Assembly (NCBI GenBank): GCA_003141415.1
Contig: PLLX01000219.1
Location: 1 to 38,284 of the forward strand
DNA length: 38,284 nt
Source: Bacteroidales bacterium
GTDB lineage: Bacteria > Bacteroidota > Bacteroidia > Bacteroidales > VadinHA17
Reading direction: 5' to 3'
Each line of letters opens with the position of its first letter. Position 1 is the stretch's first letter. Below the pieces are notes generated by a model, which did not search any database, had not been told where the DNA came from, and saw nothing but the letters and a program-made list of their open reading frames with translations. Of the stretch, positions 9,130-36,062 are shown in pieces. Position numbers and translations under genes: made by a program.

Positions 9130-10380
9130 TTATATATCAAATAACCTGCATATGTGTCTGTTATAGATGTTCTCATAAACGCAATTCGAAACTGTCTGCT
9201 CATTTGCTTCCAATAACCTTATAAAATCCTTCATTTGTAAGGCTGCAAGCTTATATGCAACATGCATCAATTGCCTCATGTTTGGGTTATAATCTGAATT
9301 TCCGGGTATATGTTTTAGTGTATCTGAAAACTTATTGCTGTTCCAATCAGAAACTTCAAATTTTGAAGGGAGCGATGAGACTTTAATTTCAATAACATCT
9401 GCATACGGAGAGCATAGCTCTTCTATTTTCTCAAGCGATTTTATATAAATCTCTTTAACAAAATCCAAAGCTTCCCCTCCTGATTCGGCAAGACCGATGA
9501 CCTCTTCAAGCCAGGTAGTCCCCGCGGTTTTCAGATGTATCCCCTTGTCATATTTTTTAATTATTGAACAAATGTGCGGATAGATAGCAAACTTATCCGA
9601 TCCTGAATGAATGCTTAATTTCAGGTTCTTTGGCAGACCGAATTCCTTAACAGCAAAGTCAATTACCAAAAGATCAGATTCGAATTCCCTGGCAAACAAC
9701 AGAGGGTCACCCACATAGTCGACTCCTTTATTGAACCTTCCAGAAAACTTCGGAGCTATTGTCTGAACAGGTATGTTTTCATAAGCCAGCATCCTAAGGA
9801 TGAAAAAGAGTTCTACAGGAGTCTGTGGCTGAGTTATCTCATCCATTGAAATTTCAGTGACAAAATTGCCCTTTCCCTTAACTTTTTCAATTTTCCTGTA
9901 AATAACCCGGGCTCTTATTGATGAAAAAAGGTACTTTTCTGCTATTTGTCTTATCTGTGAGATTGAAGTTTTAAAAGATAGTTTTGTTCCCGCGATTTTC
10001 AGTTCACCTGTGTACTTTTCAACACCTGATAAGAATTTAAGGATATCTTCCTCATCAGATTTTTTCCCAATATAAGAGGCAACATCAATTGTAAAAAAAT
10101 CGGAACATTCGATAAAACGATCAACAGTATCGAGGTTAATATGATCAGCATCAACGAAATATGGTTTATTAAATCCAGCATTTTTTGTAACCGAATCAGC
10201 TTCAATCCTGACATCTACAGGTTGTGTTCCTATTGTAGTATGTTCACGATTTGATTTATTCCAGACAGGCGTTATATCAATGTTTTTTTCAGATGCCGCT
10301 ATAATAGCTTTTAATTGAGCACTGCCCTGATGACCGAATCTGTCGCCCAGACCGAATGAGTATTTACCAAGAGTTTTCAA
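9130..10380 (-). CDS. uxaE: Tagaturonate/fructuronate epimerase
   Basis: The 416-residue protein begins LGKYSFGLGDRFGHQGSAQL, which I recognise as the UxaE family, first described in Thermotoga as a C4 epimerase that interconverts D-tagaturonate and D-fructuronate. Other recognisable parts are PYFVDADHINLDTVDRF, ITEISMDE-like and a LSIHSGSDKF segment, with histidines and acidic residues suited to metal binding. The enzyme lets a galacturonate route feed into the fructuronate/mannonate route without separate tagaturonate reductase and altronate dehydratase, neither of which is seen here. It is the last gene of the minus-strand uronate run, 140 bases after the LacI gene. Confidence 0.85.
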   Translation of the reverse strand: MKTLGKYSFGLGDRFGHQGSAQLKAIIAASEKNIDITPVWNKSNREHTTIGTQPVDVRIEADSVTKNAGFNKPYFVDADHINLDTVDRFIECSDFFTIDVASYIGKKSDEEDILKFLSGVEKYTGELKIAGTKLSFKTSISQIRQIAEKYLFSSIRARVIYRKIEKVKGKGNFVTEISMDEITQPQTPVELFFILRMLAYENIPVQTIAPKFSGRFNKGVDYVGDPLLFAREFESDLLVIDFAVKEFGLPKNLKLSIHSGSDKFAIYPHICSIIKKYDKGIHLKTAGTTWLEEVIGLAESGGEALDFVKEIYIKSLEKIEELCSPYADVIEIKVSSLPSKFEVSDWNSNKFSDTLKHIPGNSDYNPNMRQLMHVAYKLAALQMKDFIRLLEANEQTVSNCVYENIYNRHICRLFDI

Positions 10381-10410
10381 GATAATTTTGGTTAAGTCAA
10401 TTTTTCCCCC

Positions 10411-10500
10411 TTTGTGTTACTTTGTGCAATACTTCGAGTTCCTTTGTGGTTATATGATTTTTTTTATCACAAAGGTTATCTCCAAGGCTCACAAAGGAAC
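10411..10500. repeat. CTTTGTG repeat cluster with inverted copies
   Basis: The core CTTTGTG (or its complement CACAAAG) occurs about five times in 90 bases. CCTTTGTG at 10441-10448 and CACAAAGG at 10468-10475 form an inverted pair around a T-rich loop. It lies between lacI-like and uxaE. It could fold into a hairpin, but there is no clean terminator tail in the direction of transcription. Confidence 0.55.
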
Positions 10501-10520
10501 AGAGAGAGATTATATTTGTA

Positions 10521-11576
10521 CTATAAAAAAGAGTCCACATTTTCAGATGTAACAATATCAACGGGGAGATATTCAATTTTGTCAGGTATTTTACGCATCG
10601 ACAGGTATTCAAATAATTTTTTTATCCCCTTATATGTCTGTTCCTCAGGTCGCTGACCGATCAGGAACCGTGTAATTCCAGATTTTAAAAACTTAACATT
10701 TAAGTCCAGAAGATCGTATCCGATCAGGTCGATTGATTTTAGTCCTCTCTTTTCCAGATATAAAGCAATGAGATATGATCTTGACCCTGTAATAAAAACT
10801 GAACCTATTCCGGGGTTATCCATAAGTGCTTTGTCGATAGCATTTTTAACATCATCAGAAGATGGTTCAGGAATGTTTATGATAATCTTCTTGCCTTTAT
10901 TTTTGCCTGATTTTAGGAAATAGCTCAGAAATCCTTCAGTACGGTTGGTGAGGTGATGAACATTCTGGATATTTCTTGCTATAGTCACAACCAACAGATC
11001 ACTTTTTTCCGGAGTGATCATATCAATAAGTTGTCCGGCAACTCTTCCGCTCTGGAAGATATTTTCTCCTATGTAAGCCAGAAAATTTGTATTTTCAATG
11101 TATTCATCAATGAAAACAAATGGTACGTTCTCTTCCTGAAGTCGTGAACAAAAGGAGATAGATTCTGACTTGAAGATTGGTGCTAGAAGTACTCCATCGG
11201 GCTTAAGACCAAGTACAATTACGGTTTTTTTCTGAAAATCATCTTCGCTTTCCATATCAAATGTTACCTGACTAAGCGTGACCGGGAAGGGATCAAGCTC
11301 CTCTATAGCCCGGACCATACCTAGTGGATGCTTTTTCCAAAAAGAATTGTCTTCTGAAGGTGCAGGCAGAAGTGAAACCAGATGGAATCTTTTTTTTGAT
11401 TTCAACGCTTGTGCCATTACATTAGGAGAGTAATTGGTCTCTTTCAGTATTTGCTGAACCTTCAGCCTTGTTTTTTCAGCGACCTCACCTCTTTCATGTA
11501 TTACCCGGTCTACTGTCCCTATTGATACCCCAGCCATCCTGGCGATATCCTTTATCCTTGACTTTTTTGGAGGCAT
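10521..11576 (-). CDS. LacI-family transcriptional regulator
   Basis: The 351-residue protein has an N-terminal LacI helix-turn-helix (about 6-50: RIKDIARMAGVSIGTVDRVI, then the hinge region NYSPNVMAQALKS). A periplasmic-binding-protein-like sugar-binding core follows (about 58-345). Its place inside the uronate gene run, 24 bases after the MFS transporter gene, suggests that it senses a hexuronate or an intermediate and controls this cluster. A candidate operator with a central CG lies upstream of uxaC at 21586-21605. Effector and regulon are inference; the family is clear. Confidence 0.88.
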   Translation of the reverse strand: MPPKKSRIKDIARMAGVSIGTVDRVIHERGEVAEKTRLKVQQILKETNYSPNVMAQALKSKKRFHLVSLLPAPSEDNSFWKKHPLGMVRAIEELDPFPVTLSQVTFDMESEDDFQKKTVIVLGLKPDGVLLAPIFKSESISFCSRLQEENVPFVFIDEYIENTNFLAYIGENIFQSGRVAGQLIDMITPEKSDLLVVTIARNIQNVHHLTNRTEGFLSYFLKSGKNKGKKIIINIPEPSSDDVKNAIDKALMDNPGIGSVFITGSRSYLIALYLEKRGLKSIDLIGYDLLDLNVKFLKSGITRFLIGQRPEEQTYKGIKKLFEYLSMRKIPDKIEYLPVDIVTSENVDSFL

Positions 11577-11600
11577 GATTTTTAATCTTTACTGCTCAGG

Positions 11601-12899
11601 CTAATCAAGTATCACCTTTTTAACTTTTGGTGCAAATACATACATAATGATCCATGCAAGAATATATGCACAGGCCGCAATTCCAAACATGACAGTATAA
11701 CCCGTTTCAACATGGCCGGCCTTTTTAAAGAAGTTAAGAATGTGGCCTGCCAAAACTGAAATGAAAGCACCTCCTATAGCCCCGGCCATTCCTCCGATGC
11801 TGGTAACGGAACTGATAACCCTTTTTGGAAATGCATCGGATACCGTAGTAAAAATATTAGCCGACCATGCCTGATGTGATGAAGCAGCAATACTTATGAG
11901 AGCTACAGCGCCCCAAGTACTTACGCCGGATGATTGTGCGAAGAAAACAGGAGTAACAAGTAATGCAAATATCAGCATTGTGTATTTTCTTGCATTGAAA
12001 GGAGACATTCCTTTTTCTATCAAAAATGAAGAAAGCCAGCCTCCGAAAACACTTCCTACAGTAGTGGATGAGTATATAACTACAAGTGGAATACCAAATG
12101 ATTTAATATCAAGACCTGCTCCCCTTACAGTTGAAAGCCATCCTGGAATCCAGAACAGATAAAACCACCAGATCGGATCAGTCATTGCTTTCCCAATAAA
12201 GTATGTCCATGTTTGACGGTATCTTAGAAGTTGGATCCATGGAACTGGTTTCTCACTTTCATTTTGTTCATCTATATCACTTTTGATATATTCGAGTTCA
12301 CCTGCTGATAGTTTTCTTTTTTTTTCAGGAATCTCATAAAAGATAAACCAGAGAATTATCCAGATGAATCCAGTAGCACCTGTAATAATAAACGCTGCCT
12401 GCCAGCCCCATTTGATTATAATTGCCGGAATTGCAAGAGAAGCGACTATTGCTCCCACATTTGTACCTGAATTGAAAATACCAAATGCGAAAGCTCTTTC
12501 TTTTTTGGGGAACCATGCAGCAATTGTTTTGTTTGCAGCAGGAAAGTTACCTGATTCACCTACACCTAATAAAGCCCTCCAGAATCCAAATCCAATAACA
12601 CCCTTTGCAAGTGCGTGGCCCATTGCTGCAATACTCCAGAGAAGAACTGATATCCCGTAACCAATCTTCGTCCCGAATTTATCTATGAGCCGCCCTGCTA
12701 GCAACATTGATAATCCATAACACAGCTGAAAAATTGTTACAATATTTGCATAAGCAACTTCGCCCATATTAAGATTACTTTCAAGCAATGGTTTAAGAAT
12801 ACCGATCACCTGTCTGTCGAGATAGTTAATAGTCGATGCAAAGAATAACAATGCACAGACAGTCCATCTGTAACTACCAATTTTTTTGATTTCAGACAT
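11601..12899 (-). CDS. MFS transporter, hexuronate (ExuT-like) type
   Basis: The 432-residue protein has about 12 membrane helices. The N-terminal segment STINYLDRQVIGILKP is typical of the anion:cation symporter branch of the major facilitator superfamily, which includes the hexuronate transporter ExuT and glucarate/galactonate transporters. Other family features are the GRLIDKFGTKIGYG loop and the LLGVGESGNFPAANK helix. It should import glucuronate, galacturonate or a related sugar acid across the inner membrane with protons. It lies between gnd (27 bases) and the LacI gene (24 bases), and the three probably share a transcript. Confidence 0.85.
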   Translation of the reverse strand: MSEIKKIGSYRWTVCALLFFASTINYLDRQVIGILKPLLESNLNMGEVAYANIVTIFQLCYGLSMLLAGRLIDKFGTKIGYGISVLLWSIAAMGHALAKGVIGFGFWRALLGVGESGNFPAANKTIAAWFPKKERAFAFGIFNSGTNVGAIVASLAIPAIIIKWGWQAAFIITGATGFIWIILWFIFYEIPEKKRKLSAGELEYIKSDIDEQNESEKPVPWIQLLRYRQTWTYFIGKAMTDPIWWFYLFWIPGWLSTVRGAGLDIKSFGIPLVVIYSSTTVGSVFGGWLSSFLIEKGMSPFNARKYTMLIFALLVTPVFFAQSSGVSTWGAVALISIAASSHQAWSANIFTTVSDAFPKRVISSVTSIGGMAGAIGGAFISVLAGHILNFFKKAGHVETGYTVMFGIAACAYILAWIIMYVFAPKVKKVILD

Positions 12900-12926
12900 G
12901 TTCAGAGTTGATAGAAGTTATGAATA

Positions 12927-14381
12927 TCAGACATTATATGTTGAAGAAGATGTTGTTCCACCCCGGCCTGTCCAATTTGTATGGAAAAATTCACCTCTTG
13001 GTTTATCTGTTCTTTCGTAGGTATGTGCACCAAAATAATCGCGTTGGGCCTGTAAGAGATTAGCCGATAGCTTTTCACAACGGTAGCCATCATAAAAGCT
13101 CAGTGCAGCTGAGATGGACGGGATCGCGATACCATTTATTGCGGTAGCAGACACTACATTTCTCCATCCACTCTGAGCTTGCTCAACTTTATCTTTAAAG
13201 AAAGGAGCAATAAGCAGGTTTGTAATAGAAGGATTGTTATCAAATGCTTCTTTAATTTTACCAAGGAAAGCCGATCTTATTATACATCCCCCGCGCCACA
13301 TAAGAGCAATACCTCCATAGTTAAGTTTCCATTTATATTCTGCAGCGGCAGCTTTCATCAGCATATAACCCTGTGCATATGAAACAATTTTTGATGCATA
13401 GAGCGCCTCTTTTATGCCATTAATGAATTTAACCTTGTCGCCTTTAAATTCCGGACCTGGACCGTGCAGTATTTTTGATGCCTCTACTCTTTCGTTCTTT
13501 TCTGCAGAAAGGCACCTTGAAAAGACAGCTTCTCCAATTAACGTAAGAGGAATACCCTGATCGAGAGCAGTAACAACAGTCCATTTACCGGTTCCTTTCT
13601 GCCCCGCTGTGTCAAGGATTTTATCCACGAGAGGTTTTCCGTCTGAATCTTTAAAAGCAAGGATGTCACTGGTTATTTCAATGAGATAACTGTCAAGATC
13701 ACCCTCATTCCATTCTTTAAAAATGAGGTGCATCTCATCTGCATCCAGATGCAATAGATCTCTCATAATCTGATAAGCCTCGGTAATAAGTTGCATATCA
13801 CCATACTCTATGCCATTATGAACCATTTTTACGAAATGACCGGCTCCATTCTCACCAACCCAGTCACAGCAGGGGGTGCCATCTTCGACCTTGGCCGCTA
13901 TTGCCTGAAAGATTGGTTTCACAAATTGCCAGGCTGCTTTTGATCCGCCGGGCATGATTGATGGTCCGAGTAATGCACCCTCTTCACCACCCGATACGCC
14001 GGTACCGATATAAAGAAGACCTTTGCTTTCAACAAAGGCAGTTCTCCTGATTGTATCAGGAAAATGAGAGTTCCCGCCATCAATAATGATATCTCCCGGA
14101 GTAAGATAGGGGATGAGTGTATTGATCATCTCATCAACTGCATCACCAGATTTGATCATAATCATTACCTTCCTCGGACGTTCAAGAGTTCCGACAAGCT
14201 CCTTAATTGAATGAGTGCCAACAATATTTTTACCGCTGGCTCTTCCAGAGAGGAAATCATCAACTTTCTGTATTGACCTGTTGAAAACAGAAACCCTGAA
14301 TCCCTTACTTTCCATGTTAAGGACAAGATTCTCGCCCATTACTGCCAGGCCAATTAATCCGATATCTGATAATTTATTCAT
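12927..14381 (-). CDS. gnd: 6-phosphogluconate dehydrogenase, decarboxylating
   Basis: The 484-residue protein has the full-length dimeric form of the enzyme, which converts 6-phosphogluconate to ribulose-5-phosphate and CO2 with NADP. Visible are the dinucleotide fold IGLIGLAVMGENL with the NRS-type NADP-binding turn, the substrate segments GVSGGEEGALLGPSIMPGG and KMVHNGIEYGD, GQKGTGKWT, LMWRGGCIIRS, and the C-terminal RDYFGAHTYER segment. Its presence inside a uronate cluster is unusual. Together with the LarA homologue upstream, it suggests that part of the uronate carbon goes to the pentose phosphate pathway through gluconate. A gluconate kinase would be needed and is not in the window. 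Confidence 0.95.
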   Translation of the reverse strand: MNKLSDIGLIGLAVMGENLVLNMESKGFRVSVFNRSIQKVDDFLSGRASGKNIVGTHSIKELVGTLERPRKVMIMIKSGDAVDEMINTLIPYLTPGDIIIDGGNSHFPDTIRRTAFVESKGLLYIGTGVSGGEEGALLGPSIMPGGSKAAWQFVKPIFQAIAAKVEDGTPCCDWVGENGAGHFVKMVHNGIEYGDMQLITEAYQIMRDLLHLDADEMHLIFKEWNEGDLDSYLIEITSDILAFKDSDGKPLVDKILDTAGQKGTGKWTVVTALDQGIPLTLIGEAVFSRCLSAEKNERVEASKILHGPGPEFKGDKVKFINGIKEALYASKIVSYAQGYMLMKAAAAEYKWKLNYGGIALMWRGGCIIRSAFLGKIKEAFDNNPSITNLLIAPFFKDKVEQAQSGWRNVVSATAINGIAIPSISAALSFYDGYRCEKLSANLLQAQRDYFGAHTYERTDKPRGEFFHTNWTGRGGTTSSSTYNV

Positions 14382-14467
14382 AGCTAAAAGTTTGTGTTTA
14401 TAATATTTTGTTTTATGTCAAATTTTTCGTCACTTATTAAATGTTACCCGTTAATCATACTGGTTTT

Positions 14468-14497
14468 GGCCCCAACACCCCTAAGGGGGGCTAATTT
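14468..14497. repeat. CCCC-AAC-CCCC / GGGG palindromic element
   Basis: GGCCCCAACACCCCTAAGGG and the following GGGCTAATTT form a small GC-rich element with a CCCCTAAGGGG core, standing out from AT-rich surroundings. A related element is at 25474-25545. It lies between the Gfo/Idh/MocA gene and gnd. Confidence 0.6.
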
Positions 14498-14517
14498 CCT
14501 CTATATTAGTATATTCA

Positions 14518-14566
14518 CTTTTATCTTTTTACTTTGTTTTTTATCTTTTGCCTTTAACCTTTACCT
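14518..14566. repeat. Heptanucleotide array, A/G-rich type, overlapping a gene end
   Basis: Seven units of seven bases: CTTTTAT, CTTTTTA, CTTTGTT, TTTTATC, TTTTGCC, TTTAACC, TTTACCT. On the sense strand of the oxidoreductase gene this reads as purine-rich AAAGG/AAAGA units. The array covers the stop codon (14541-14543) and encodes the lysine-rich KVKVKGKR tail of that protein. Its sense sequence differs by only one substitution and one indel from a stretch of the array at 23125-23194. Confidence 0.8.
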
Positions 14567-15542
14567 TTTTATAATACTCTGCCACAATATCATCCATAAT
14601 CTTACTGGTTCTGGCTCCCGTTATCCCGGTACTCGGAGATGCACCCTGCCCGTTAAGTGATTGAACTATTTTTTCAATAAGATTGTACTGAACATGTTCA
14701 GGACGTTCATTAACAAATTCCTGACGTCCCGATTCGTTAGTAAGAACAATCGGTTCAAAGCTAAATGTGGAGAATTTAATTGATCCTTCGTCCCCAATAA
14801 TTTCGATAGTATCTCTGCCGTTATCAAGTGAAACACTGAAACTCCATGTACCGGTTCCAACAATATTATTATTAAAAATAAACTCAGCGGAAACAAAATC
14901 TTCTGCTTTATATAACCCCGCCTGATTTACTGCTATCGATTTAACTTTCTGAACCGGACCGAAAAGAAAATCAAGATAATCAAGTTGATGACAGGCCAGA
15001 TCAAAGAAATGTCCTCCGCCTGAAATCTTGGGATAAACCCGCCATGAAGGTTTTCCCGCTTTCTCATCTGCAGAAGGAGACTTGAACAACTGTATTATCA
15101 AAAAACGTACTTTCCCAATTTCCCCATTTTCAATAAGATCTTTAATTAAAAGGAACCCGGGTAGAGCTCTTCTGTAATATGCCACATAAACCGGAACTCG
15201 GTATTTTTCAGCAGCTTTATTTATACTAAGACATTCGGAATAGTTTACCGCCATTGGTTTTTCAATATATACCGGTTTGCGGGCTTTTATAACTTCAAGT
15301 GCATATTCAGCATGATTTCCCGGCGGAGTGGCGATATATACTGCATTGATATCCTTATCGTTAATTAAATCCAAAGCCTTTGAGTAAAACTTTGGAACAT
15401 TATGTCGCCGGGCATAATCCTCAGCCAGGAAGGCATCTCTCCGCATAACGGCTATCAGTCTCGAATCTCTGACTTTATTAAATGCCGGGCCACTTTTTAC
15501 TTCAGTGACATTACCACAACCTATTATTCCCCAGTTTATCAT
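14541..15542 (-). CDS. Gfo/Idh/MocA-family oxidoreductase
   Basis: The 333-residue protein has an N-terminal NAD(P)-binding Rossmann domain (WGIIGCGNVTEVKSGPAF at the start, AVYIATPPGNHAEYALE in the middle) and the family's EKPMA motif with its conserved lysine. The C-terminal alpha/beta domain carries GGGHFFDLACHQLDYLDFL, which contains the usual catalytic-region histidines. It should oxidise or reduce a sugar, sugar acid or inositol; the substrate cannot be read from the sequence. It follows the LarA homologue by 22 bases, so a sugar acid is likely. Its last eight residues, KVKVKGKR, are encoded by a heptamer repeat array, which suggests that the C-terminus was reshaped by repeat growth. 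Confidence 0.85.
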   Translation of the reverse strand: MINWGIIGCGNVTEVKSGPAFNKVRDSRLIAVMRRDAFLAEDYARRHNVPKFYSKALDLINDKDINAVYIATPPGNHAEYALEVIKARKPVYIEKPMAVNYSECLSINKAAEKYRVPVYVAYYRRALPGFLLIKDLIENGEIGKVRFLIIQLFKSPSADEKAGKPSWRVYPKISGGGHFFDLACHQLDYLDFLFGPVQKVKSIAVNQAGLYKAEDFVSAEFIFNNNIVGTGTWSFSVSLDNGRDTIEIIGDEGSIKFSTFSFEPIVLTNESGRQEFVNERPEHVQYNLIEKIVQSLNGQGASPSTGITGARTSKIMDDIVAEYYKKVKVKGKR

Positions 15543-15564
15543 TTTTTGAATTTAATAATAATTT

Positions 15565-16836
15565 TTATGCCAGCCGTTGCTTTGATGTCCATAATCCAAG
15601 TGCGGGATTTGATATGAAGTATATTTCCTCGCCATCATCCATATTATTAAAACCGTCTTTCAGATTTTTTGGATTGTATTTTTTCAACATATCATTAAGA
15701 TTACGATATTTAAAGTTGACTGATTCTATCTCTTCCCTTGTAAGGTATCCCGGGCAATAAGTTATGGAGAATCTCCCTTCTGAACTTCCGTGAATCAGAT
15801 GAGCAGCTGCACTAAGATTATTATTAAGCTCTTCATTTTCATTCAGAGCTTTTAATGTGACTGGTGTACCCCGATATCCATATTTCCTGATCAGTCTGTC
15901 GATCTCTTTATCCTCTCCGAACTCTTTTAAAGCCGGTGCCATGACAATCAATTCCCCGTTATCAGCCATTGCCATACGCGTTCTGTAAATACTTTTGTTT
16001 CCCAACCAGGTGCTTTTAAACTCAGCAGGATCAAGATAGACAATAACTTTCTTTAAAGGTTTTTCAAGCACATTGAAGTTTACCTTAAGGGAAAGATCAG
16101 CTGCAAGTCTGAATACTTCCTCATCATCACCCATAAAAAGCCCCCTGACCACAAGCTTTCCTTCTTCATCACGGCCTATGACAGTATGTACGTAAACAAT
16201 TGGCAAGTGGCTGGTAAAATTTGAAGAGGCATAGTTTAATAGAGACCTGACAGGGTTATCAGCTTTTCCCATGATACGTTCCATGCCATAAACCGCTCCG
16301 ATAAAATGACTCTTATTAATACCTTCAGGTCCCCCTGTCCCAACAAATAAATTCTTATTATAATTGGCCATTCCAATAACCTCATGCGGGACAACCTGTC
16401 CGACTGATAGTATAAGATCATGTCCGCCGTTGAAAACCAGTCTGTTAAGCTGAGCGGGCCATGAATAGTTTAACGCGCCGTCAGTTATTTCAGATACGAA
16501 TGAAGCGGGCACTATACCTGCTGTTATAACATCATTTCTCCAGTCATGAACACGAAATAGTGACTTTGGTACTCCTTTATACATTTCACCAAGCTGGAAG
16601 TCAGTCATTGGAGAGTGGGTACCAAGGGCAGGTAGGATATCTTTCAGATTTTCCTGATAATACTTGTATATATATGAAGTAAGTTCACCGGCTCTTGAAT
16701 GAAAACGGGTACAGTCGGGAGGAACAACAAGTACCTTTTTTCTGACACCCAGATTTTCCAGTGCTGAATAAATTCCGGACTCAAGATCTTTTGAGTTAAG
16801 AACTGTATTCTCTGAACCTGATTTAAAATAAATCAT
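15565..16836 (-). CDS. LarA-family nickel-pincer racemase/epimerase homologue
   Basis: The 423-residue protein matches the LarA (DUF2088) family. It shows D41-x-T43-R44 in PPDCTRFHSR, H74 in GTHSPMT, H151 in VVPHEVIG, K161 in NYNKNLFVGTGG and H177 in NKSHFIG. By alignment by eye, the lysine and histidines correspond to those that hold the nickel-pincer nucleotide in lactate racemase. Family members racemise or epimerise 2-hydroxy acids, including a known D-gluconate 2-epimerase group. In this uronate run the most attractive reaction is D-mannonate to D-gluconate, matching the nearby gnd; this is inference. The cofactor genes larB, larC and larE are not in the window. It heads a pair with the Gfo/Idh/MocA gene, 22 bases apart. 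Confidence 0.82.
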   Translation of the reverse strand: MIYFKSGSENTVLNSKDLESGIYSALENLGVRKKVLVVPPDCTRFHSRAGELTSYIYKYYQENLKDILPALGTHSPMTDFQLGEMYKGVPKSLFRVHDWRNDVITAGIVPASFVSEITDGALNYSWPAQLNRLVFNGGHDLILSVGQVVPHEVIGMANYNKNLFVGTGGPEGINKSHFIGAVYGMERIMGKADNPVRSLLNYASSNFTSHLPIVYVHTVIGRDEEGKLVVRGLFMGDDEEVFRLAADLSLKVNFNVLEKPLKKVIVYLDPAEFKSTWLGNKSIYRTRMAMADNGELIVMAPALKEFGEDKEIDRLIRKYGYRGTPVTLKALNENEELNNNLSAAAHLIHGSSEGRFSITYCPGYLTREEIESVNFKYRNLNDMLKKYNPKNLKDGFNNMDDGEEIYFISNPALGLWTSKQRLA

Positions 16837-16891
16837 TACTTATATAGATTTCAATTTTGTTACAAAACTCCCGGAACCTTATTAATCGTGA

Positions 16892-16962
16892 ATCAGGTGA
16901 TGGGCGTCAGGCATAAGATTAGTTTTTCCTGTCGCCTGTAACCTTCAGCCTGTCGCCTATTT
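16892..16962. repeat. Paired inverted heptamer arrays, CAGG type
   Basis: One arm has four heptamers (ATCAGGT, GATGGGC, GTCAGGC, ATAAGAT at 16892-16919). The other has five in the opposite sense (CCTGTCG, CCTGTAA, CCTTCAG, CCTGTCG, CCTATTT at 16928-16962). GGCGTCAGGC and GCCTGTCGCC can pair with one mismatch, so the RNA could form a hairpin. The array covers the HAD gene stop codon (16957-16959). The same architecture occurs at 24527-24590. Confidence 0.8.
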
Positions 16963-17838
16963 CCAATGTGGATATTCAGGCAGATAAGTTTCAAACTCTC
17001 TTATAAGTTCATCCTCGTAAGAACCCTTGAAAGTTCCGGTAAAGAAAATGTCAAGTCCTTCGTTATAGAGTTTTTCCCACGATTCTTCTTCTTTACCGGG
17101 ATTGATCGGGAAGAAGAGGGCCCCGTTCGATTTCGCTGCCTTCAGATCACCTTTAGCATCACCGATCATCAGAATCTTTTCACCGGGATATTTATCCTTT
17201 GCGGCATATTTAATATGCTCTGATTTAGTTCCATGCTCCTGCCCGGCTATCATCCTCAGAAAATGGTCGATTTTATTTTCTTCCCATTCGCGCTTAAGCG
17301 CTTCAAATGGAGTTTGTGAGACGACCATTATATCAGCTGTTGGTTTTATTTTCTCCAGACATTCTTTTACGAAAGGAAATGGAGTTATTCCGAATACCAT
17401 TTTTTCGATCTCCTCATTTACCTTCAGTGACCATTCGAGTGTCAGTGTAATGAACGGATCATTTATTTCTGCAGCATATTTTTTCAATGCAGGATTCCCA
17501 AGTTTCGTCTCCTTCATTGTCCATTCTATAAGAGGAGAAGAAGAAGGAACCTTGAAGTTTCTGGCTTTAATTTCGGGACGTGTAGTCAGAAGTCTTAGAG
17601 TCTCAATAACTGCAAGGAAACGATTGCATCCCCTGTAAGTTGAATAGAGATTCACGAATTCCCAGGTTTCCCGGGCATACTTCGAAACAGGTTGCATTCT
17701 GAAGTACTTTATGAAGTTAGGGCAAAAACACTCCTTCTGTTTTATCTCCATAGTATCAAAAGCACAGCCATCGGAATCTATTCCTATAAAAAACTCCTTC
17801 TCCGGTTTTAAAGCTAATAAATGTTCCTGTGGACTCAT
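16957..17838 (-). CDS. HAD-superfamily phosphatase
   Basis: The 293-residue protein has the HAD motifs in order: motif I D21-S-D23-G (GIDSDGCAFDTM), with D21 the probable nucleophile; motif II around the serine in IMVVSQTPFEA; a lysine before or near HGTKSEHIKYA; and motif IV GDAKGDLKAA. The large insert after motif I (about 35-150) forms a cap domain and probably sets the substrate. It is likely a cytoplasmic phosphatase acting on a sugar or sugar-acid phosphate. It lies 24 bases after the phosphofructokinase gene, which suggests a linked step or removal of a side product. The exact substrate is unknown. Confidence 0.8.
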   Translation of the reverse strand: MSPQEHLLALKPEKEFFIGIDSDGCAFDTMEIKQKECFCPNFIKYFRMQPVSKYARETWEFVNLYSTYRGCNRFLAVIETLRLLTTRPEIKARNFKVPSSSPLIEWTMKETKLGNPALKKYAAEINDPFITLTLEWSLKVNEEIEKMVFGITPFPFVKECLEKIKPTADIMVVSQTPFEALKREWEENKIDHFLRMIAGQEHGTKSEHIKYAAKDKYPGEKILMIGDAKGDLKAAKSNGALFFPINPGKEEESWEKLYNEGLDIFFTGTFKGSYEDELIREFETYLPEYPHWK

Positions 17839-17862
17839 GTTATAAATAAAGAATGTAAATAA

Positions 17863-19149
17863 TTATTTTTCGTAAGCTTCTAATTTATATCCGGGTAACT
17901 TTTTCTCCGCAAATTTCATTTCAAACCTTGCAAATCTCTGTCTCCCGTTGATCATTGGCACTGACGGCCAGTCTTCACCAACTAGTGGCCTGACATAAGC
18001 AAGGAATTCATCCGTAACATCGTAACGACTTTCGGCAATCCATTTTTCAGGAAATGTTCTTTCAGATAATGCAACTTTCTCAAGGGAAACCTTATCATAT
18101 CTTACATTATATATAAAACCAGGTTCCCTCAGGATTGTTGCCATCCAGCCGTTCCCTTCGTATAAAGATATCTCGACAGCTTTTTGTCCTACTTTATAAG
18201 CTTCATCGAGGTCGACGATTGAGGCGTAAGCTGTGGTATCCCGTTGATCAGTTCCCATAATCTGGCCCCTGGCCGCACCCCTGGTTTTTAATCCTTTGCT
18301 GTTCAGGTAATTAACAACAGTCTGGAAGACGGAATTCTGACTCGATCCGAAGGACGTATGACCAAAAGGATCAATTACCTCACCGATACTGCCAACGTCA
18401 AATCCCTCGCTAACAACTACAATACATCTTCCTTCCTTCTTTAACTGTTCATTGACATTATGAACCAGGTTATCGATAGATACTTTTGACTCAGCCATAT
18501 AGATCTGCAACGGCAAATTTCTCTCCGGATCGGCAAGTCTTGCAGCAGCAGGGATATAGCCAATTCTCCTCCCCATTGCCTGGATAACCAGTACAGGATC
18601 TGCCGGAGCCGAGCCTAAGTTCTCTTCATTGGCATTCTGAATAATATGCGACCAGTATCTTGCAACACTTCCATACCCCGGCGTGTGATCAATAAGTTTA
18701 AATTCATTGTCACCCAAATCATTATCAATTGTTTTTGGCACTCCCACTGCAATCAGATCAAGACCTTTGTTTTTTGCCATTTCACTAACCATAAAAGCCG
18801 TATGTTGTGAATCGTTTCCACCTATATAGAAAAAGTAACCGATATTATGAGCATTAAACACTTCCATGATCCTGTGGAAGTCTTTTTGCTGATTATCTTT
18901 AAGCTTATATCGACATGTACCTATGCTTCCTGCGGCAGGCGTATTTCGTAATAAGGCAATCTCCTCTTCGTTCTGAGCTGACAGGTCAAGTAAATGCTCA
19001 TTCAAAACTCCTTCAATGCCATGCCATCCTCCGTAAACCTTTCCGAATTTGTCAGGGAACATTCTGCATGTCTCGATGATCCCCCGTAATGAACTGTTGA
19101 TAACCGGCGAAGGTCCGCCAGACTGGGCAACTATTACATTCTTTGCCAT
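17863..19149 (-). CDS. Phosphofructokinase, PPi-dependent type
   Basis: The 428-residue protein belongs to the PfkA superfamily: AQSGGPSPVINSS at the N-terminus, the phosphate-donor loop G110-G-N-D-S114, the catalytic segment PKTIDND (138-144) and the substrate segment AMGRRIGYIPAAAR. The lysine in PKTIDND (glycine in ATP enzymes) and the aspartate at 113 (glycine in ATP enzymes) point to pyrophosphate as donor. The asparagine at 112, where aspartate is usual, is also seen in one subgroup as I recall. It makes fructose-1,6-bisphosphate, and such enzymes can also use sedoheptulose-7-phosphate. That would fit pentose phosphate flux created by Gnd in the same run. It pairs with the HAD gene. Confidence 0.85.
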   Translation of the reverse strand: MAKNVIVAQSGGPSPVINSSLRGIIETCRMFPDKFGKVYGGWHGIEGVLNEHLLDLSAQNEEEIALLRNTPAAGSIGTCRYKLKDNQQKDFHRIMEVFNAHNIGYFFYIGGNDSQHTAFMVSEMAKNKGLDLIAVGVPKTIDNDLGDNEFKLIDHTPGYGSVARYWSHIIQNANEENLGSAPADPVLVIQAMGRRIGYIPAAARLADPERNLPLQIYMAESKVSIDNLVHNVNEQLKKEGRCIVVVSEGFDVGSIGEVIDPFGHTSFGSSQNSVFQTVVNYLNSKGLKTRGAARGQIMGTDQRDTTAYASIVDLDEAYKVGQKAVEISLYEGNGWMATILREPGFIYNVRYDKVSLEKVALSERTFPEKWIAESRYDVTDEFLAYVRPLVGEDWPSVPMINGRQRFARFEMKFAEKKLPGYKLEAYEK

Positions 19150-19167
19150 TGTTCTGCTTTATTTATA

Positions 19168-19255
19168 GTTTCGAGTTCCGTGTTTCTCGTTACTCGTTAC
19201 ACGTAATTATTTCTTACGATTTACTTTTGTCTTTTCCCTTTTGTCTTTTATCTTA
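19168..19255. repeat. Two-module heptamer array, GTTNNNN and CTTTTNN types
   Basis: Module one (19168-19202) has five units: GTTTCGA, GTTCCGT, GTTTCTC, GTTACTC, GTTACAC. Module two (19223-19255) has ACTTTTG, TCTTTTC, CCTTTTG, TCTTTTA and a partial unit. Module two begins 18 bases after the SDR stop codon when read on that gene's sense strand. The order of modules and the spacer length resemble the array at 35018-35113. Confidence 0.8.
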
Positions 19256-19273
19256 AAATTCAGCCCTGAGCTT

Positions 19274-20116
19274 TCACACTCCTGAATAAGCACTAAACCC
19301 ACCGTCTACGGGGATAACTACTCCAGTAACGAACTTTGACAAATCAGAAACAAGGTAGATAAGTGTACCTGTTAATTCTTCAGGAATACAATAGCGTTCC
19401 ATCGGTGTACCGTTTAATATTTTTCTTCCTCTCGGCGTGGATCCACCGGTTTTCTCATCAATCAGGAGGAATCTATTCTGATTTGTAAGAAGAAATCCGG
19501 GTGCTATTGCATTTACCCTGACACCTGTTTTTGAAAAATGAACAGCAAGCCATTGTGTAAAATTATTAACGGCTGCTTTAGCAGCAGAATAAGCGGCAAT
19601 TTTGGTCAGGGGCCTGTACGAGTTCATTGAAGAAATGTTAATTATTACTCCTGATTTCTTCTTGACAAGGTCTGTTGCGAAGACCATTGTTGGAATTAAT
19701 GTTCCCTTAAAGTTCAGGTCAAAAACTCTCTCAAAACCTTCAATCTGCAGACCGAAAAATGTCTCTTCAAGGTTTTCCTCTTCCGTGCCTTCCATTTTTT
19801 CAACTATGGTGGTGGCAGCTGGAGCGTTACCTCCGGCGCCGTTTACCAGAATGTCAATAAGGCCAAAGCTCTCATGAACGACTTTCAATGCCTCCTCCAG
19901 TGATGCTTTGTCGAGAACACTGGCATAAACTCCTATGGATGGTGTATTATACTCTTTTTCAATCTGTTTGGCAACTTCAGTTGCTGCATCTTTATTGAGA
20001 TCGAGTAGCACTGTTTTAACTCCGTGGGCGGCAAGTGATTTAGCCATGGTTGAACAAATGATCCCTGCACCACCTGTAATAACTGCAACTTTATCTCTTA
20101 AATTTAATTCGTTCAT
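19274..20116 (-). CDS. uxuB: SDR oxidoreductase, probable fructuronate reductase
   Basis: The 280-residue classical short-chain dehydrogenase has a cofactor motif TGGAGIICS (14-22), the NGAGG segment, the active-site serine in NISSMNS, the YSAAK catalytic pair, and a long lid segment typical of this group. The altered glycine motif (IIC instead of GIG) and the length resemble the SDR-type D-mannonate oxidoreductases, which act in place of the E. coli UxuB family and reduce D-fructuronate to D-mannonate. It lies 27 bases after uxaC, whose product from glucuronate is fructuronate. The gene symbol is functional and tentative, since this is not an orthologue of E. coli UxuB. Confidence 0.75.
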   Translation of the reverse strand: MNELNLRDKVAVITGGAGIICSTMAKSLAAHGVKTVLLDLNKDAATEVAKQIEKEYNTPSIGVYASVLDKASLEEALKVVHESFGLIDILVNGAGGNAPAATTIVEKMEGTEEENLEETFFGLQIEGFERVFDLNFKGTLIPTMVFATDLVKKKSGVIINISSMNSYRPLTKIAAYSAAKAAVNNFTQWLAVHFSKTGVRVNAIAPGFLLTNQNRFLLIDEKTGGSTPRGRKILNGTPMERYCIPEELTGTLIYLVSDLSKFVTGVVIPVDGGFSAYSGV

Positions 20117-20143
20117 TTATAATGTTTTTGATTCGGAGAGGGT

Positions 20144-21541
20144 TTAAAATCCAAAATACTCCTTAGCATTCCTGTATGAAATTCCTTCAATCAGAGGCTT
20201 TAGTAGTTCTTCCTCATCAGGAATAAGACCTTTTTCAACCTCTTCCCCTACAAAATTGCATACCAAACGTCTGAAATATTCGTGACGTGGGTAGGATAGG
20301 AAGCTTCGCGAATCGGTGACCATTCCGATAAACCTTCCTAATAATCCGATTGCTGCGAGATCTTTCAGATGCTTTTCTATACCACTTTTCTGATCGAGGA
20401 ACCACCATGCAGCTCCATTTTGTACTTTTCCGGCTGATGAACCATCATTGAAATTCCCAGCCATGGTTATCATCATCTCATTATCTGCAGGATTTAGATT
20501 ATAAAGGATCGTTTTAGTAAGCTGCTCATTATTATCAAGTTCGCTTAGGAAGTTTGATATTTTCAAAGGATTCTGGGCTATACCGATTGAATCCCATCCA
20601 GTATCAGGACCCATTTGTCTGAATAATCTTGCATTGTTATTTCTCATTGCGCCGACATGAAACTGTTGAGTCCAACCTCTTTTATGATTCAATCTGCAGA
20701 GTTCAAGCATCACAGCTGTTTTATATTTTTCAGCTTCCTCAGATGAGATTATCTCTCCATTAAGCAGATTCTTAAAAATCCTGTCAATCTCAGGGAACGT
20801 GAAAGAAGCAAAATAAAAACGGCCAAGACCATTATCAGATAATCTGCCTCCCATATCATGAAAGAACTTATGTCTTTTATCTAATGCTTCTAGAAGACCA
20901 TTAAAGTTCCTTATTTCGGTTCCGCTCACCAGTTCCAGTTTCATGATGTATGACTTGAATATCTCAGGGTCCTCTGTTTTAATTACATTATCGGGCCGGA
21001 ATGTTGGCAGAACTTTAATTTCGAAGGAACCTTTAAGTTTAATATGATTTTCAAGATTATCAGTAGGGTCATCGGTCGTACAAATGACCTCTGCTTTCAT
21101 CTTCCGGATTATAGATCTGGTACTGAGTTCTTTCGTTTGAAGCATTGCAGAGGCGTCTTCATAAACCATGGCAGCTGTTGAAGGAGAAAGAAGTTCAGTT
21201 ATATTGAAATATCTGGCAAGTTCGAGATGTGTCCAGTGATAAAGAGGATTTCCTGCTGTTACAGGAACTGTTTCTGCCCATTTTTTAAATTTTTCGATGT
21301 CTGAAGCTTTCCCTGTACAATATTTTTCATTGATACCATTTGTTCTCATGGCCCGCCACTTATAATGATCTCCTTCCAGCCATGCCTGGGTAAGATTTGA
21401 AAATCTATGGTCCTCAGCTATCATTGCAGGTGAAAGGTGACAGTGAAAATCTATAATAGGCAGATTCTCAGAATAATTATGATAAAGTTTTTCTGCTGTT
21501 TTATTTCCCAGGAGAAAATTCTCGTGAATAAATGGTTTCAT
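20144..21541 (-). CDS. uxaC: Glucuronate/galacturonate isomerase
   Basis: The 465-residue protein is a full-length UxaC, an amidohydrolase-fold isomerase that turns D-glucuronate into D-fructuronate and D-galacturonate into D-tagaturonate. Visible features are IIDFHCHLSP with the metal-binding H33-x-H35, the WLEGDHYKWRAMRTNGI segment, CTTDDPTDNL, LPTFRPD, and QFHVGAMRNNN and GWDSIG late in the sequence. It is the first gene of the minus-strand uronate run and faces the GH105 gene across a 434-bp gap that holds a candidate LacI operator. Confidence 0.95.
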   Translation of the reverse strand: MKPFIHENFLLGNKTAEKLYHNYSENLPIIDFHCHLSPAMIAEDHRFSNLTQAWLEGDHYKWRAMRTNGINEKYCTGKASDIEKFKKWAETVPVTAGNPLYHWTHLELARYFNITELLSPSTAAMVYEDASAMLQTKELSTRSIIRKMKAEVICTTDDPTDNLENHIKLKGSFEIKVLPTFRPDNVIKTEDPEIFKSYIMKLELVSGTEIRNFNGLLEALDKRHKFFHDMGGRLSDNGLGRFYFASFTFPEIDRIFKNLLNGEIISSEEAEKYKTAVMLELCRLNHKRGWTQQFHVGAMRNNNARLFRQMGPDTGWDSIGIAQNPLKISNFLSELDNNEQLTKTILYNLNPADNEMMITMAGNFNDGSSAGKVQNGAAWWFLDQKSGIEKHLKDLAAIGLLGRFIGMVTDSRSFLSYPRHEYFRRLVCNFVGEEVEKGLIPDEEELLKPLIEGISYRNAKEYFGF

Positions 21542-24627: not shown

Positions 24628-25464
24628 ATGAAAGTTGAACTTAGATATGCCGCTCATCCTGACGACGTAAAAATTTACGATACTGCCAGGCTCCGAAAAG
24701 ATTTCCTAATTGAAAACATTTTTATATCAGATGAGATAAGCCTGGTTTATTCGATGTATGATCGTTACATGGTGGGAGGTGCCATGCCGGTTAAAAATGA
24801 GTTAATTCTGGAAACCTCAGAGGAACTTAAATCGGAAAATTTTCTCGACAGGAGGGAGATGGGAATTATCAATGTTGGAGGAGCTGCAATGATTCATACA
24901 AGTGGAAAGAAATATGAAATTGGATTCAAAGAGGCTTTATATCTTGGAAAAGGTACTTATGATGTTGTATTTAAATCGGTTGATCCTTACAAACCAGCTA
25001 AGCTATATCTTAATTCTGCTACTGCCCATCATACCTATCCTTCGAAGAAAGTGACACTTGCTGATGCAGATGTAGTTGTTTTGGGAACAATGGAGTCTTC
25101 TAATCACAGGACAGTTAATAAGTTACTTGTAAACAGTGTTATCGAGACTTGTCAGCTTCAGATGGGAATGACTGAACTTAAGACAGGCAGTGTCTGGAAT
25201 ACAATGCCAGTTCATACTCATAACAGAAGGATGGAAGCTTATTTCTACTTTGAAGTACCTGAGAAACAGACTATCTGTCATTTTATGGGTGAGCCCGATG
25301 AAACAAGACATATATGGATGAAGAATGAACAGGCCGTCCTTTCGCCATCATGGAGTATTCATAGCGCAGCAGGAACATCCAATTACACATTTATCTGGGG
25401 TATGGCAGGGGAAAATCTTGATTACGGGGATATGGATATCCGCCAGCAGGATACTCTGAAATAG
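24628..25464 (+). CDS. kduI: 5-keto-4-deoxyuronate isomerase
   Basis: The 278-residue protein is full length for KduI, a zinc-dependent cupin that isomerises 5-keto-4-deoxyuronate (DKI) to 2,5-diketo-3-deoxygluconate (DKII). Recognisable segments are RYAAHPDDVKIYDTARLR at the start, GGAMPV, MGIINVGG, YLNSATAHHTYPSKK, and the metal-binding MPVHTHNRRMEAYFYFE followed by FMGEPDETRHIWMKNEQAVLSPSWSIH. It stands between the GH5 gene and kduD and would use the product of the GH105 enzyme. Confidence 0.96.
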   Translation: MKVELRYAAHPDDVKIYDTARLRKDFLIENIFISDEISLVYSMYDRYMVGGAMPVKNELILETSEELKSENFLDRREMGIINVGGAAMIHTSGKKYEIGFKEALYLGKGTYDVVFKSVDPYKPAKLYLNSATAHHTYPSKKVTLADADVVVLGTMESSNHRTVNKLLVNSVIETCQLQMGMTELKTGSVWNTMPVHTHNRRMEAYFYFEVPEKQTICHFMGEPDETRHIWMKNEQAVLSPSWSIHSAAGTSNYTFIWGMAGENLDYGDMDIRQQDTLK

Positions 25465-25473
25465 ATCGATTTT

Positions 25474-25545
25474 ACCCCCAACCCCGTGATGGGGGCTTGA
25501 TTATACAATTGCTTTTGACCCCCATTTGGAGGGAAGGGGGGTGAA
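25474..25545. repeat. Two CCCC/GGGG elements before kduD
   Basis: ACCCCCAACCCCGTGATGGG followed by GGCTTGATTA (25474-25503) is close to the element at 14468-14497. A second C-run/G-run block, ACCCCCATTTGGAGGGAAGG and following G-run, lies at 25519-25545. They stand out from AT-rich DNA between kduI and kduD. Pairing of C and G blocks could give hairpins, without a clear terminator tail. Confidence 0.6.
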
Positions 25546-25612
25546 AACTAGAGGAGGCAGAGGCAAAAGTTTAACAGAATTACACAGAGTAAAAAACATA
25601 ATAAATTTTGCT

Positions 25613-26407
25613 ATGAAAGATTTATTTGATCTTACCGGAAAAGTTGCTCTGGTAACAGGCGGTACTCACGGAATCGGTCTTGCAATAGGATTATTGCTGG
25701 CCAAAGCAGGTGCAAAAGTTTGTGTAAATGATCTTCAGGACGATAAACTTCAAAGTTGCAGAGAGAGTTTCAATAAAGAGGGGCTGGATGTATTCACTTT
25801 GAAATTCGACGTAACAGATGAGGATGATGTTGATAAAGGAATATCCCTGATCGAAAAAAGTATAGGTTCCATTGATATTCTCGTAAATAATGCCGGAATT
25901 ATTAAAAGGATTCCGATACTTGAAATGGAAATAACTGACTATAAACAGGTAATTGATGTTGACCTTGTGGCTCCGTTTATTATTTCAAAACGGGTTGCAC
26001 CAAAAATGATTGAAAAACGCAGTGGTAAGATTATAAATATATGTTCTATGATGAGTGTCTATGGCCGGAATACTGTTTCTGCATACGCTTCTGCTAAAGG
26101 CGGTCTTAAACTCCTGACACAAAATATGACCTGCGAATGGGCAAAGTATAATATTCAGATCAATGGTATTGGTCCGGGTTATATTGCTACTTCACAGACA
26201 GCCCCCATCCGCGAAAATGGACATCCTTTTAACGATCTTGTGATGACTCGTACACCGGCAGGCAGATGGGGCGAGCCAGAGGATGTGGCTAATGCAGCCC
26301 TCTTCCTGGCTTCAAAAGCCAGCGACTTTGTCAATGGGCATATCTTATTCGTTGATGGCGGAATCCTTGCTAACTTTGGATATGTAAAAGGGGAAAACGA
26401 CCTTTAA
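25613..26407 (+). CDS. kduD: 2-deoxy-D-gluconate 3-dehydrogenase / KDG-forming SDR
   Basis: The 264-residue classical SDR reduces 2,5-diketo-3-deoxygluconate to 2-keto-3-deoxygluconate. It shows TGGTHGIG (15-22) for NAD(P), the NNAGI segment, the serine in NICSMMSVYG, YASAKGG with the catalytic tyrosine and lysine, and the C-terminal VNGHILFVDGG. I chose the ATG at 25613 because the next 15 residues (KDLFDLTGKVALVTG) start the domain in the usual way. An upstream TTG at 25526 would add 29 residues rich in arginine and glycine that come from repeat DNA and look non-coding. It follows kduI, which makes its substrate. Confidence 0.92.
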   Translation: MKDLFDLTGKVALVTGGTHGIGLAIGLLLAKAGAKVCVNDLQDDKLQSCRESFNKEGLDVFTLKFDVTDEDDVDKGISLIEKSIGSIDILVNNAGIIKRIPILEMEITDYKQVIDVDLVAPFIISKRVAPKMIEKRSGKIINICSMMSVYGRNTVSAYASAKGGLKLLTQNMTCEWAKYNIQINGIGPGYIATSQTAPIRENGHPFNDLVMTRTPAGRWGEPEDVANAALFLASKASDFVNGHILFVDGGILANFGYVKGENDL

Positions 26408-35017: not shown

Positions 35018-35113
35018 GTTGCTGGTTGCTGGTTGCTTGTTCCTCGTTTTGCGTTTCTCATTCAGTGATAACGTTTTTCTACATTTGTCTTTTTACTTTT
35101 GTCTTTTATCTTT
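35018..35113. repeat. Two-module heptamer array, GTTNNNN and TTTNNCT types
   Basis: Module one (35018-35066) has seven units: GTTGCTG, GTTGCTG, GTTGCTT, GTTCCTC, GTTTTGC, GTTTCTC, ATTCAGT. Module two (35084-35111) has TTTGTCT, TTTTACT, TTTGTCT, TTTATCT. It ends at the radical SAM stop codon (35112-35114). The 26 bases 35088-35113 are the exact complement of 23158-23183. The module order matches 19168-19255. Confidence 0.9.
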
Positions 35114-36062
35114 AAGCGTCATTGCATTCACATTTTATTGGGGTGGCTATTTCCTGGCTCATGTTCATCTCAATAAGACGATCCGTTCTCTTTTTAATAC
35201 AATTATTACAATTGGAAAACAGTCCCAGATCCCAAACATCAGCAAAGACCCGTCCTTTATTTAATCCTATTCCATATTCAAGAACCATTTCAAGAGAGTG
35301 AATATCAGGCAAGTTAAAATCGCCTTTTCCCATTAAAAAATCCATTGCTCCGTTTCCTGCCCTGACAGGAATAATAGTGCAACATTCAACCCCTGTATTG
35401 AATGCAAAGTCCATTGAACGTTCAGCCCAATAAATACCTTCTGATTCCGAGAGCAGGGGAGGCCTTAAAAGAATAAATGCCCTTGAACGTATTCCGTGTT
35501 TTGTAAGAAAGCTGACAGAATCCCTGAAATCCTCTATTGTCATTTGCTTATTCAGTGTCCGTAAAATCTGAGGATGCACAGTTTCCAGTCCAAGAGCAAC
35601 CTGTAAATCTGGCTTCAGCATATCCCTGAAAGTCAGACATTTTTCATTGATCAGGCTGGGGTGACTTTCAACAGTAACTGTTTCAAAATTACTTAACAGA
35701 GATGCAATTTCCTTATAGTCTTCCACAGGAATGGCCCTTCTGTCAAAGAAGCTTCCACTGTTATATAGTTTAAGTTGTTTAACACCAGGTATTTGATCCA
35801 ATGCCCAGGCAATTTGTTTTGGAATTGAACCAATAGCAACCGGTTCATCTGTTGTGTTTCTCCACAGGTCGCACATCAGACAATGAAACGGGCACTCCCG
35901 GTTAGTCAGAAAAATAATGCCTGTATCTTCAATCTTCCCGGAAATGGTGCGTTCTTTTTCAACCAGCAATCCATAAGGCTTTTGAGGGTCAACATTATTT
36001 TTATTTCCCCTCATGGATACGATCCAATGGTCATTGACCAATAAATCAGAATCTTCACTCAT
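35112..36062 (-). CDS. Radical SAM protein of unknown substrate
   Basis: The 316-residue protein has the radical SAM cluster motif C57-x3-C61-x2-C64 in NRECPFHCLMCDLW. It also has a barrel with LYNSGSFFDRR, a VTVESHP strand and QVALGLETVHPQIL, as in the Elp3/MiaB-like group of the superfamily. Near the C-terminus are CNNC and CEC, which may bind a further cluster or metal. I chose the ATG at 36062: it overlaps the upstream gene's stop in the form ATGAGTGA, typical of coupled translation, while an ATG at 36143 would overlap by 89 bases. It likely works with the asparagine-synthetase-like protein encoded just upstream. Confidence 0.82.
   Translation of the reverse strand: MSEDSDLLVNDHWIVSMRGNKNNVDPQKPYGLLVEKERTISGKIEDTGIIFLTNRECPFHCLMCDLWRNTTDEPVAIGSIPKQIAWALDQIPGVKQLKLYNSGSFFDRRAIPVEDYKEIASLLSNFETVTVESHPSLINEKCLTFRDMLKPDLQVALGLETVHPQILRTLNKQMTIEDFRDSVSFLTKHGIRSRAFILLRPPLLSESEGIYWAERSMDFAFNTGVECCTIIPVRAGNGAMDFLMGKGDFNLPDIHSLEMVLEYGIGLNKGRVFADVWDLGLFSNCNNCIKKRTDRLIEMNMSQEIATPIKCECNDA

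Follow-up and report, generated by a model that had tools for sequence, protein, structure and literature searches.

A route in which mannonate is epimerised to gluconate and thereby enters pentose-phosphate metabolism was proposed for Thermotoga (Rodionova 2012, as told in the part of PMC6978723 cited here). Epimerisation of D-mannonate to D-gluconate was shown in 2020 for LarA groups 19 and 20, group 18 figuring in the cited part of PMC7583248 as a hypothesised hexonate epimerase only. Here we analyse a 38,284-nucleotide stretch of DNA from a Bacteroidales bacterium (contig PLLX01000219.1 of assembly GCA_003141415.1; hereafter the window), in which a LarA group 18 homologue (LarA18), a phosphofructokinase (PFK) homologue, a HAD hydrolase and 6-phosphogluconate dehydrogenase (Gnd) are encoded in one run with uronate genes. 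We consider it probable, at roughly 0.6, that this run is a hexuronate operon leading from pectin uronates to pentose phosphates via LarA18, the PFK (with the HAD) and Gnd. A mannonate-gluconate-Gnd bypass had been put forward from the letters of this DNA alone (hereafter the sequence-only reading); it is well supported, and, as the two papers above document, already a published idea, what is new being the pairing of a group 18 epimerase with candidate kinases of its own that replace one another.

The ten genes of the run lie on the minus strand from 21541 down to 9130 in the order uxaC, SDR, PFK homologue, HAD, LarA homologue, Gfo/Idh/MocA, gnd, MFS, LacI and uxaE, with intergenic gaps of 22–159 bases. 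An identical order in the loci L001 and L002 of relatives, at 83–92% protein identity, indicates that the run is not an assembly accident. The sequence-only reading had placed uxaC, uxaE, an SDR, a LarA homologue and full-length gnd in one run without uxuA, kdgK or kdgA. All five genes are indeed there at full length, but uxaE falls outside the interval 12927–21541 given for them, although it belongs to the same run, and the PFK homologue, the HAD and Gfo/Idh/MocA had gone unmentioned. Neither uxuA nor kdgK nor kdgA was recognised by Pfam and/or NCBIfam in 32 of the 33 window open reading frames (ORFs) of at least 120 aa, the omitted ORF being antisense to the HAD.

From the gene content, gene order, conserved residues, co-occurrence and mutual exclusion observed for the LarA18 cluster genes, we infer the reactions of LarA18, the PFK, the HAD and a PfkB-type kinase of relatives as follows. 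UxaC (uronate isomerase, 20144..21541, minus strand; NF002794 at 598 bits, cut-off 387; PF02614) and UxaE (tagaturonate epimerase, 9130..10380, minus strand; PF16257 at 176 bits, gathering score 27) would convert galacturonate or glucuronate to fructuronate, which the SDR (D-mannonate oxidoreductase of the fructuronate reductase type, 19274..20116, minus strand; NF006132 at 386 bits, cut-off 281) would reduce to D-mannonate. Using the nickel-pincer nucleotide, LarA18 would then invert D-mannonate at C2 to D-gluconate, to which the PFK homologue would add a phosphate at C6, perhaps from pyrophosphate (PPi), to form 6-phosphogluconate; Gnd would decarboxylate the latter to ribulose-5-phosphate. 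The HAD, which stands beside the PFK wherever the contig reaches, would most likely clear a by-product of the PFK, and in most relatives a KdgK-related PfkB would perform the kinase step instead. Since the reduction of fructuronate consumes one reducing equivalent and the Gnd step gives one back, such a route would be redox-neutral overall, in line with the cited part of PMC6978723, and the yield of NADPH claimed earlier is overstated, with at most NADH traded for NADPH.

The window LarA homologue (15565..16836, minus strand) belongs to NCBIfam NF052594, the 'putative hexonate epimerase' family of LarA group 18 (656 bits, cut-off 500), and is a distant relative (130-bit match) of 4nar, identified in the cited part of PMC7583248 as the structure of Thermotoga maritima GntE2. 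The metal and lysine residues noticed earlier are retained well beyond the window: D41, R44, H74, H151, K161, H177 and K281, which comprise cofactor-binding and catalytic positions, are all kept in 91 of 91 aligned LarA18 relatives. LarA18 also shares with GntE a loop His-Glu, a tryptophan and, at the position of N348 in GntE2, an Asn. We propose LarA18 as a predicted D-mannonate/D-gluconate 2-epimerase. A search of 218 genomes of the window's order with NF052594 gave matches in 30 and none in 188. Twenty-eight of the matches were over cut-off; we kept G154, whose LarA is cut by a contig end, and left out G003 with its weak partial match, which gives 29 LarA18 genomes. They were compared with 37 LarA18-less genomes (the no-match genomes among G001–G050 minus the low-completeness G009, G011, G013 and G017), 66 genomes in total. 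LarC is found in 19 of the 29 LarA18 genomes (one match weak) vs 2 of the 37 others. In the window genome (G000) larC and larE adjoin at a contig end and larB, also named by the sequence-only reading, was not seen there, while larC-larE-larB are all present in G112, from the genus of the window genome.

A genomic partner of LarA18 is Gnd, which in the window is a full-length decarboxylating enzyme (12927..14381, minus strand; TIGR00873 at 766 bits, cut-off 427). At E<=1e-60 it is found in 27/29 LarA18 genomes vs 3/37 others (26 vs 2 when the curated cut-off is applied), and in both Gnd-less LarA18 genomes the contig stops within LarA or about 1.3 kb past it. Glucose-6-phosphate dehydrogenase (Zwf) is present in 18/29 vs 4/37, and Gnd occurs with no Zwf match in 10/29 LarA18 genomes vs none of the 37. 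UxuA (PF03786) has no match in the whole of G000, a metagenome-assembled genome estimated at 81.75% completeness, and was not found in G112 or in G212, from the family of the window genome. The association of LarA18 with Gnd, the occurrence of Gnd without Zwf, the presence of larC and larE and the uxuA result all support the route read earlier, from mannonate through gluconate and 6-phosphogluconate to ribulose-5-phosphate. G000 also has a second gnd, adjoining zwf, on its contig 108 (L129); its three zwf matches, and a size larger than that of its relatives G112 and G212, suggest that the bin may be mixed.

At least 589 stretches with LarA18 relatives were confirmed, the best 80 were fetched and 79 read, L070 being dropped because an antisense ORF had been picked. 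Among the 79 loci, Gnd is present in 64, the SDR in 64, UxaC in 48, UxaE in 41, KdgA in 22 and UxuA in 8. In a separate observation on the loci of the searched genomes, a PdxB-like 4-phosphoerythronate dehydrogenase gene follows LarA18 in 17 of 27 (L108–L113, L118, L120, L125, L126, L130, L131, L133–L135, L138 and L140), and Gnd is the next gene in 16 of these, the contig ending in L112. Because 6-phosphogluconate dehydrogenase is inhibited by 4-phosphoerythronate, according to the cited part of PMC6449344, the PdxB-like gene may protect Gnd at high pentose-phosphate flux.

The step between a hexonate and 6-phosphogluconate had been assigned by the sequence-only reading to a kinase encoded elsewhere. 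Our data argue otherwise, since LarA18 is linked with two types of kinase, and in the window the PFK and HAD genes are flanked by the SDR and LarA. Immediately upstream of LarA18, 33 of the 79 loci have a PfkB-type kinase, 25 an SDR and 11 a HAD; a PFK precedes the HAD in nine of these 11, and the contigs of the remaining two, L003 and L049, start at the HAD. Comparison of L074 (SDR, UxuA, PFK, HAD, LarA, Gnd) with L076 (SDR, UxuA, PfkB, LarA, PdxB, Gnd) indicates that PFK+HAD fills the PfkB slot. A HAD together with a LarA-linked PfkB was found in none of the 79 loci, and the close relative L007, without PFK and HAD, has a PfkB of the LarA-linked type immediately after UxaE.

The two kinase types exclude each other among genomes as well. 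The genome searches used the HAD, the PFK being read beside it in fetched loci rather than serving as a query itself, and, for PfkB, a Bacteroidota alignment at E<=1e-60. PfkB is found in 21/29 LarA18 genomes vs 0/37 others, and the HAD in 7/29 vs 0/37; all seven HAD genomes are among the eight PfkB-less ones and none among the 21 with PfkB (Fisher p 5e-6 within the 29). A PFK lies directly upstream of the HAD in 7/7 HAD genomes, the window itself having been read for G000. In a LarA18 tree of 91 proteins (59 labelled PfkB or PFK+HAD, 32 unlabelled; G043 and G212 on long branches), eight label changes are needed, at least five of them forced by well-supported branches, and three families each include both labels (G000 and G212 vs G112; G154 vs G043; G074 vs G178). 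LarA transfer between hosts could lie behind some of these changes. Mutual exclusion and repeated exchange in one slot are together a usual mark of functional equivalence. As a kinase is the function most obviously lacking between hexonate and 6-phosphogluconate, the PFK (with the HAD) becomes a candidate for the phosphorylation of gluconate or mannonate, possibly with PPi, and the bypass kinase is probably encoded inside the window cluster, a point that is new here. Searches for known gluconokinases, which the sequence-only reading had anticipated in the genome, gave no P-loop gluconokinase over cut-off in any of the 66 genomes and no FGGY gluconokinase (the type of T. maritima GntK) over the curated cut-off in any of the 29; the latter negative is weak, since this strict cut-off is passed by only 2 of 14 control genomes.

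The window PFK (17863..19149, minus strand) scores 369 bits against the PPi-PFK subfamily NF010675 (cut-off 273), has the PPi-PFKs 3k2q and 3hno as nearest solved structures and carries GGNDS and PKTIDND, which we take to be PPi-type motifs. Presumably R162, R243 and R252 (E. coli numbering) hold the phosphate of fructose-6-phosphate in classical PFKs. The R243 and R252 equivalents are retained in the LarA18-linked PFK and could suit a carboxylate, while the R162 position is Pro in 15/15 LarA18-linked PFKs, Lys in 3k2q and 3hno and Arg in five of the seven further PFK paralogues that G000 encodes. The window PFK is unlikely to be the housekeeping copy, as it is the lowest-scoring full-length protein among the eight PFK-family matches of G000. 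Its HAD partner (16957..17838, minus strand; PF13419) has the full catalytic set of motifs, DSDG, VVSQTP, GTK and GDAxGD, invariant in 13/13 aligned proteins; it has no solved structural relative by sequence at E<=0.001, and its AlphaFold model is poor (mean pLDDT 56). That a PFK-family enzyme, probably PPi-dependent and with a dedicated HAD phosphatase, became a gluconate/mannonate 6-kinase and, beside LarA18, repeatedly changed places with a hexonate kinase of the PfkB family is a tentative proposal that we hold at a little under even odds; it would amount to two undescribed kinase families, one of them PPi-driven.

The PfkB of the relatives is itself distinct. In a tree of 62 locus sequences and three from G000, from which sequences shorter than 300 aa were left out, 32 of the 33 PfkB with a LarA neighbour form a single supported group, from which 20 of the 21 adjoining KdgA or KduD (KdgK proper) are separate. 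The LarA-linked PfkB keeps GGGD, and its Bacteroidota type reads ATSAETNVA in place of the GGGEANVA of KdgK, a motif to which we ascribe a role in sugar binding.

The co-occurrence data fit equally a pathway in the opposite order, in which PFK+HAD or PfkB would phosphorylate mannonate and LarA18 would act as a 6-phosphomannonate 2-epimerase yielding 6-phosphogluconate, an order with a precedent in Lactobacillus suebicus extracts (cited part of PMC6978723). We think this unlikely, since LarA18 keeps the GntE features described above and the substrate of GntE2 is unphosphorylated mannonate (cited part of PMC7583248). It is quite unlikely, too, that the PFK is an ordinary PPi-dependent kinase of fructose-6-phosphate or sedoheptulose-7-phosphate further down the pentose-phosphate pathway, gluconate being phosphorylated by a kinase elsewhere, such as an FGGY enzyme. 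Membership in NF010675, the two kept arginine equivalents and the FGGY kinases of unassigned substrate that occur, below cut-off, in 27/29 LarA18 genomes would all suit an ordinary PFK; its low rank among the PFK-family proteins of G000 does not, and neither the restriction of the HAD to genomes without LarA-linked PfkB nor its place in the PfkB slot would be predicted.

Two further explanations seem to us highly improbable. PFK+HAD and the LarA-linked PfkB might be 2-keto-3-deoxygluconate (KDG) kinases serving a KduI/KduD branch, as the kinship of PfkB with KdgK could suggest, and KduI/KduD-like genes do stand next door in the window while the incomplete G000 yielded no KdgK-like PfkB. Yet KdgK and the LarA-linked PfkB form separate clades and share loci in Marinilabiliaceae (L031, L035 of Alkaliflexus imshenetskii, L038 of Natronoflexus pectinivorans and L052 of Marinilabilia salmonicolor), and LarA-linked PfkB and the HAD were found in none of the 37 genomes without LarA18, nine of which have UxuA and should need a KDG kinase. 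Equally far-fetched, in our estimate, is that LarA18 epimerises another uronate-derived acid such as altronate, with an indirect link to Gnd: group 18 is, as noted, a hexonate epimerase by hypothesis, but the adjoining SDR is of the mannonate type, no gene of the run other than Gnd is known to act on a gluconate product, and Gnd is tied to LarA18 even where Zwf is not found.

Several observations weigh against a hexuronate operon of the kind we favour. Gnd is not in the fetched flank of 15 of the 79 loci, including L034 and the Verrucomicrobia loci L046, L057 and L080. UxuA coexists with LarA18 in 11/29 genomes (two matches weak), so that the earlier notion of a bypass replacing the uxuA route does not extend to these; a strict replacement of UxuA by LarA was rejected (11/29 vs 9/37, Fisher p 0.29). 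The LarA locus of N. pectinivorans (L038) lacks UxuA, but G143, which has an identical LarA, carries a UxuA at another place. The FGGY kinases mentioned above offer another possible source of the kinase step. G006, estimated at 100% completeness, has LarA18 and Gnd and neither kinase was found in it, although the Bacteroidota query could have missed a PfkB of Ignavibacteria or Verrucomicrobia type, for instance in this genome. LarC has no match in ten LarA18 genomes (G022, G058, G072, G074, G096, G108, G119, G136, G164 and G178), seven of them 96–100% complete; a degenerate LarA was rejected for the five of these ten that were looked at, in which the cofactor residues are intact. With two of three arginines kept, and the third missing from two of seven other PFK paralogues of G000 as well, the sequence of the PFK does not single out a substrate. 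The role of the HAD as a clean-up phosphatase for a mis-phosphorylated by-product of the PFK is a guess, and G000 carries a second HAD copy outside the LarA cluster, about 60% identical and cut by the contig end (L127:9290-9757, at the end of contig 216).

The remaining genes of the run are a Gfo/Idh/MocA oxidoreductase (14541..15542; PF01408 and PF22725), of a family found directly downstream of LarA in 27 of the 79 loci, an MFS transporter, probably of sugar acids (11601..12899; PF07690, and TIGR00893 at 223 bits, under its cut-off), and a LacI-family regulator (10521..11576; PF00356 and PF13407), all on the minus strand. Upstream on the opposite strand, a GH88 hydrolase, a GH5-type hydrolase, KduI and a KduD-like SDR provide a pectin setting. 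KduI and the KduD-like SDR occupy 24628–26407, and the latter scores over cut-off as gluconate 5-dehydrogenase (NF005488, 435 bits). Further along, at 35112–37383, radical-SAM and asparagine-synthase-like genes overlap.

If the hexuronate-operon reading is right, the mannonate-to-pentose bypass would not be confined to Thermotoga but would extend to many uronate-gene-bearing Bacteroidota and Ignavibacteriota. It would explain the occurrence of gnd without zwf in LarA18 genomes, would assign the kinase step that both searched gluconokinase models missed there and would imply the recruitment of two unrelated kinase families into a single slot. For the fermentation of pectin waste, a redox-neutral path from galacturonate to pentose phosphates is of interest (cited part of PMC6978723).

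Compared with known systems, the window LarA does not differ from NF052594, a family whose function is itself a prediction. The PFK shares family and PPi-type motifs with the PPi-PFKs of NF010675 (3k2q and 3hno), and the LarA18-linked subgroup differs by its HAD partner and by Pro at R162. The LarA-linked PfkB of relatives resembles KdgK (2afb, 131 bits) and keeps its GGGD, differing by its separate clade and, in the Bacteroidota type, by ATSAETNVA vs GGGEANVA. LguH of Luteolibacter LG18 is likewise a sugar-acid kinase able to use PPi; unlike the proposed gluconate/mannonate PFK, it has KDG as its substrate and carries the annotation of a KDG kinase, and the known PPi kinases listed with it in the cited part of PMC12632266 include no PPi-dependent gluconate or mannonate kinase. 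In the parts of the open-licence PubMed Central literature covered, PMC11770544, PMC5507952 and PMC6353982 included, no PfkB- or PFK-type kinase or HAD tied to LarA homologues was found. The L. suebicus route similarly joins the upper isomerase pathway to 6-phosphogluconate and ribulose-5-phosphate in a redox-neutral way; it differs in that phosphorylation comes first, and the cited part of PMC6978723 suspects gluconate-kinase homologues, the genes not being identified there. The closest counterpart is the T. maritima GntE2/GntK branch, which likewise runs through uxaC, uxaE, fructuronate reductase, a LarA-family mannonate/gluconate 2-epimerase and a kinase to 6-phosphogluconate and onwards. 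In the window the epimerase, Gnd, uxaC, uxaE and fructuronate reductase of such a set all lie within 9130–21541, and no recognised gluconokinase, P-loop or FGGY, scores over the curated cut-offs in the genomes searched, that for FGGY being strict. Where T. maritima, as far as the cited sources tell, pairs a group 20 LarA with the gluconokinase GntK, the window pairs group 18 with PFK+HAD, and its relatives with PfkB.

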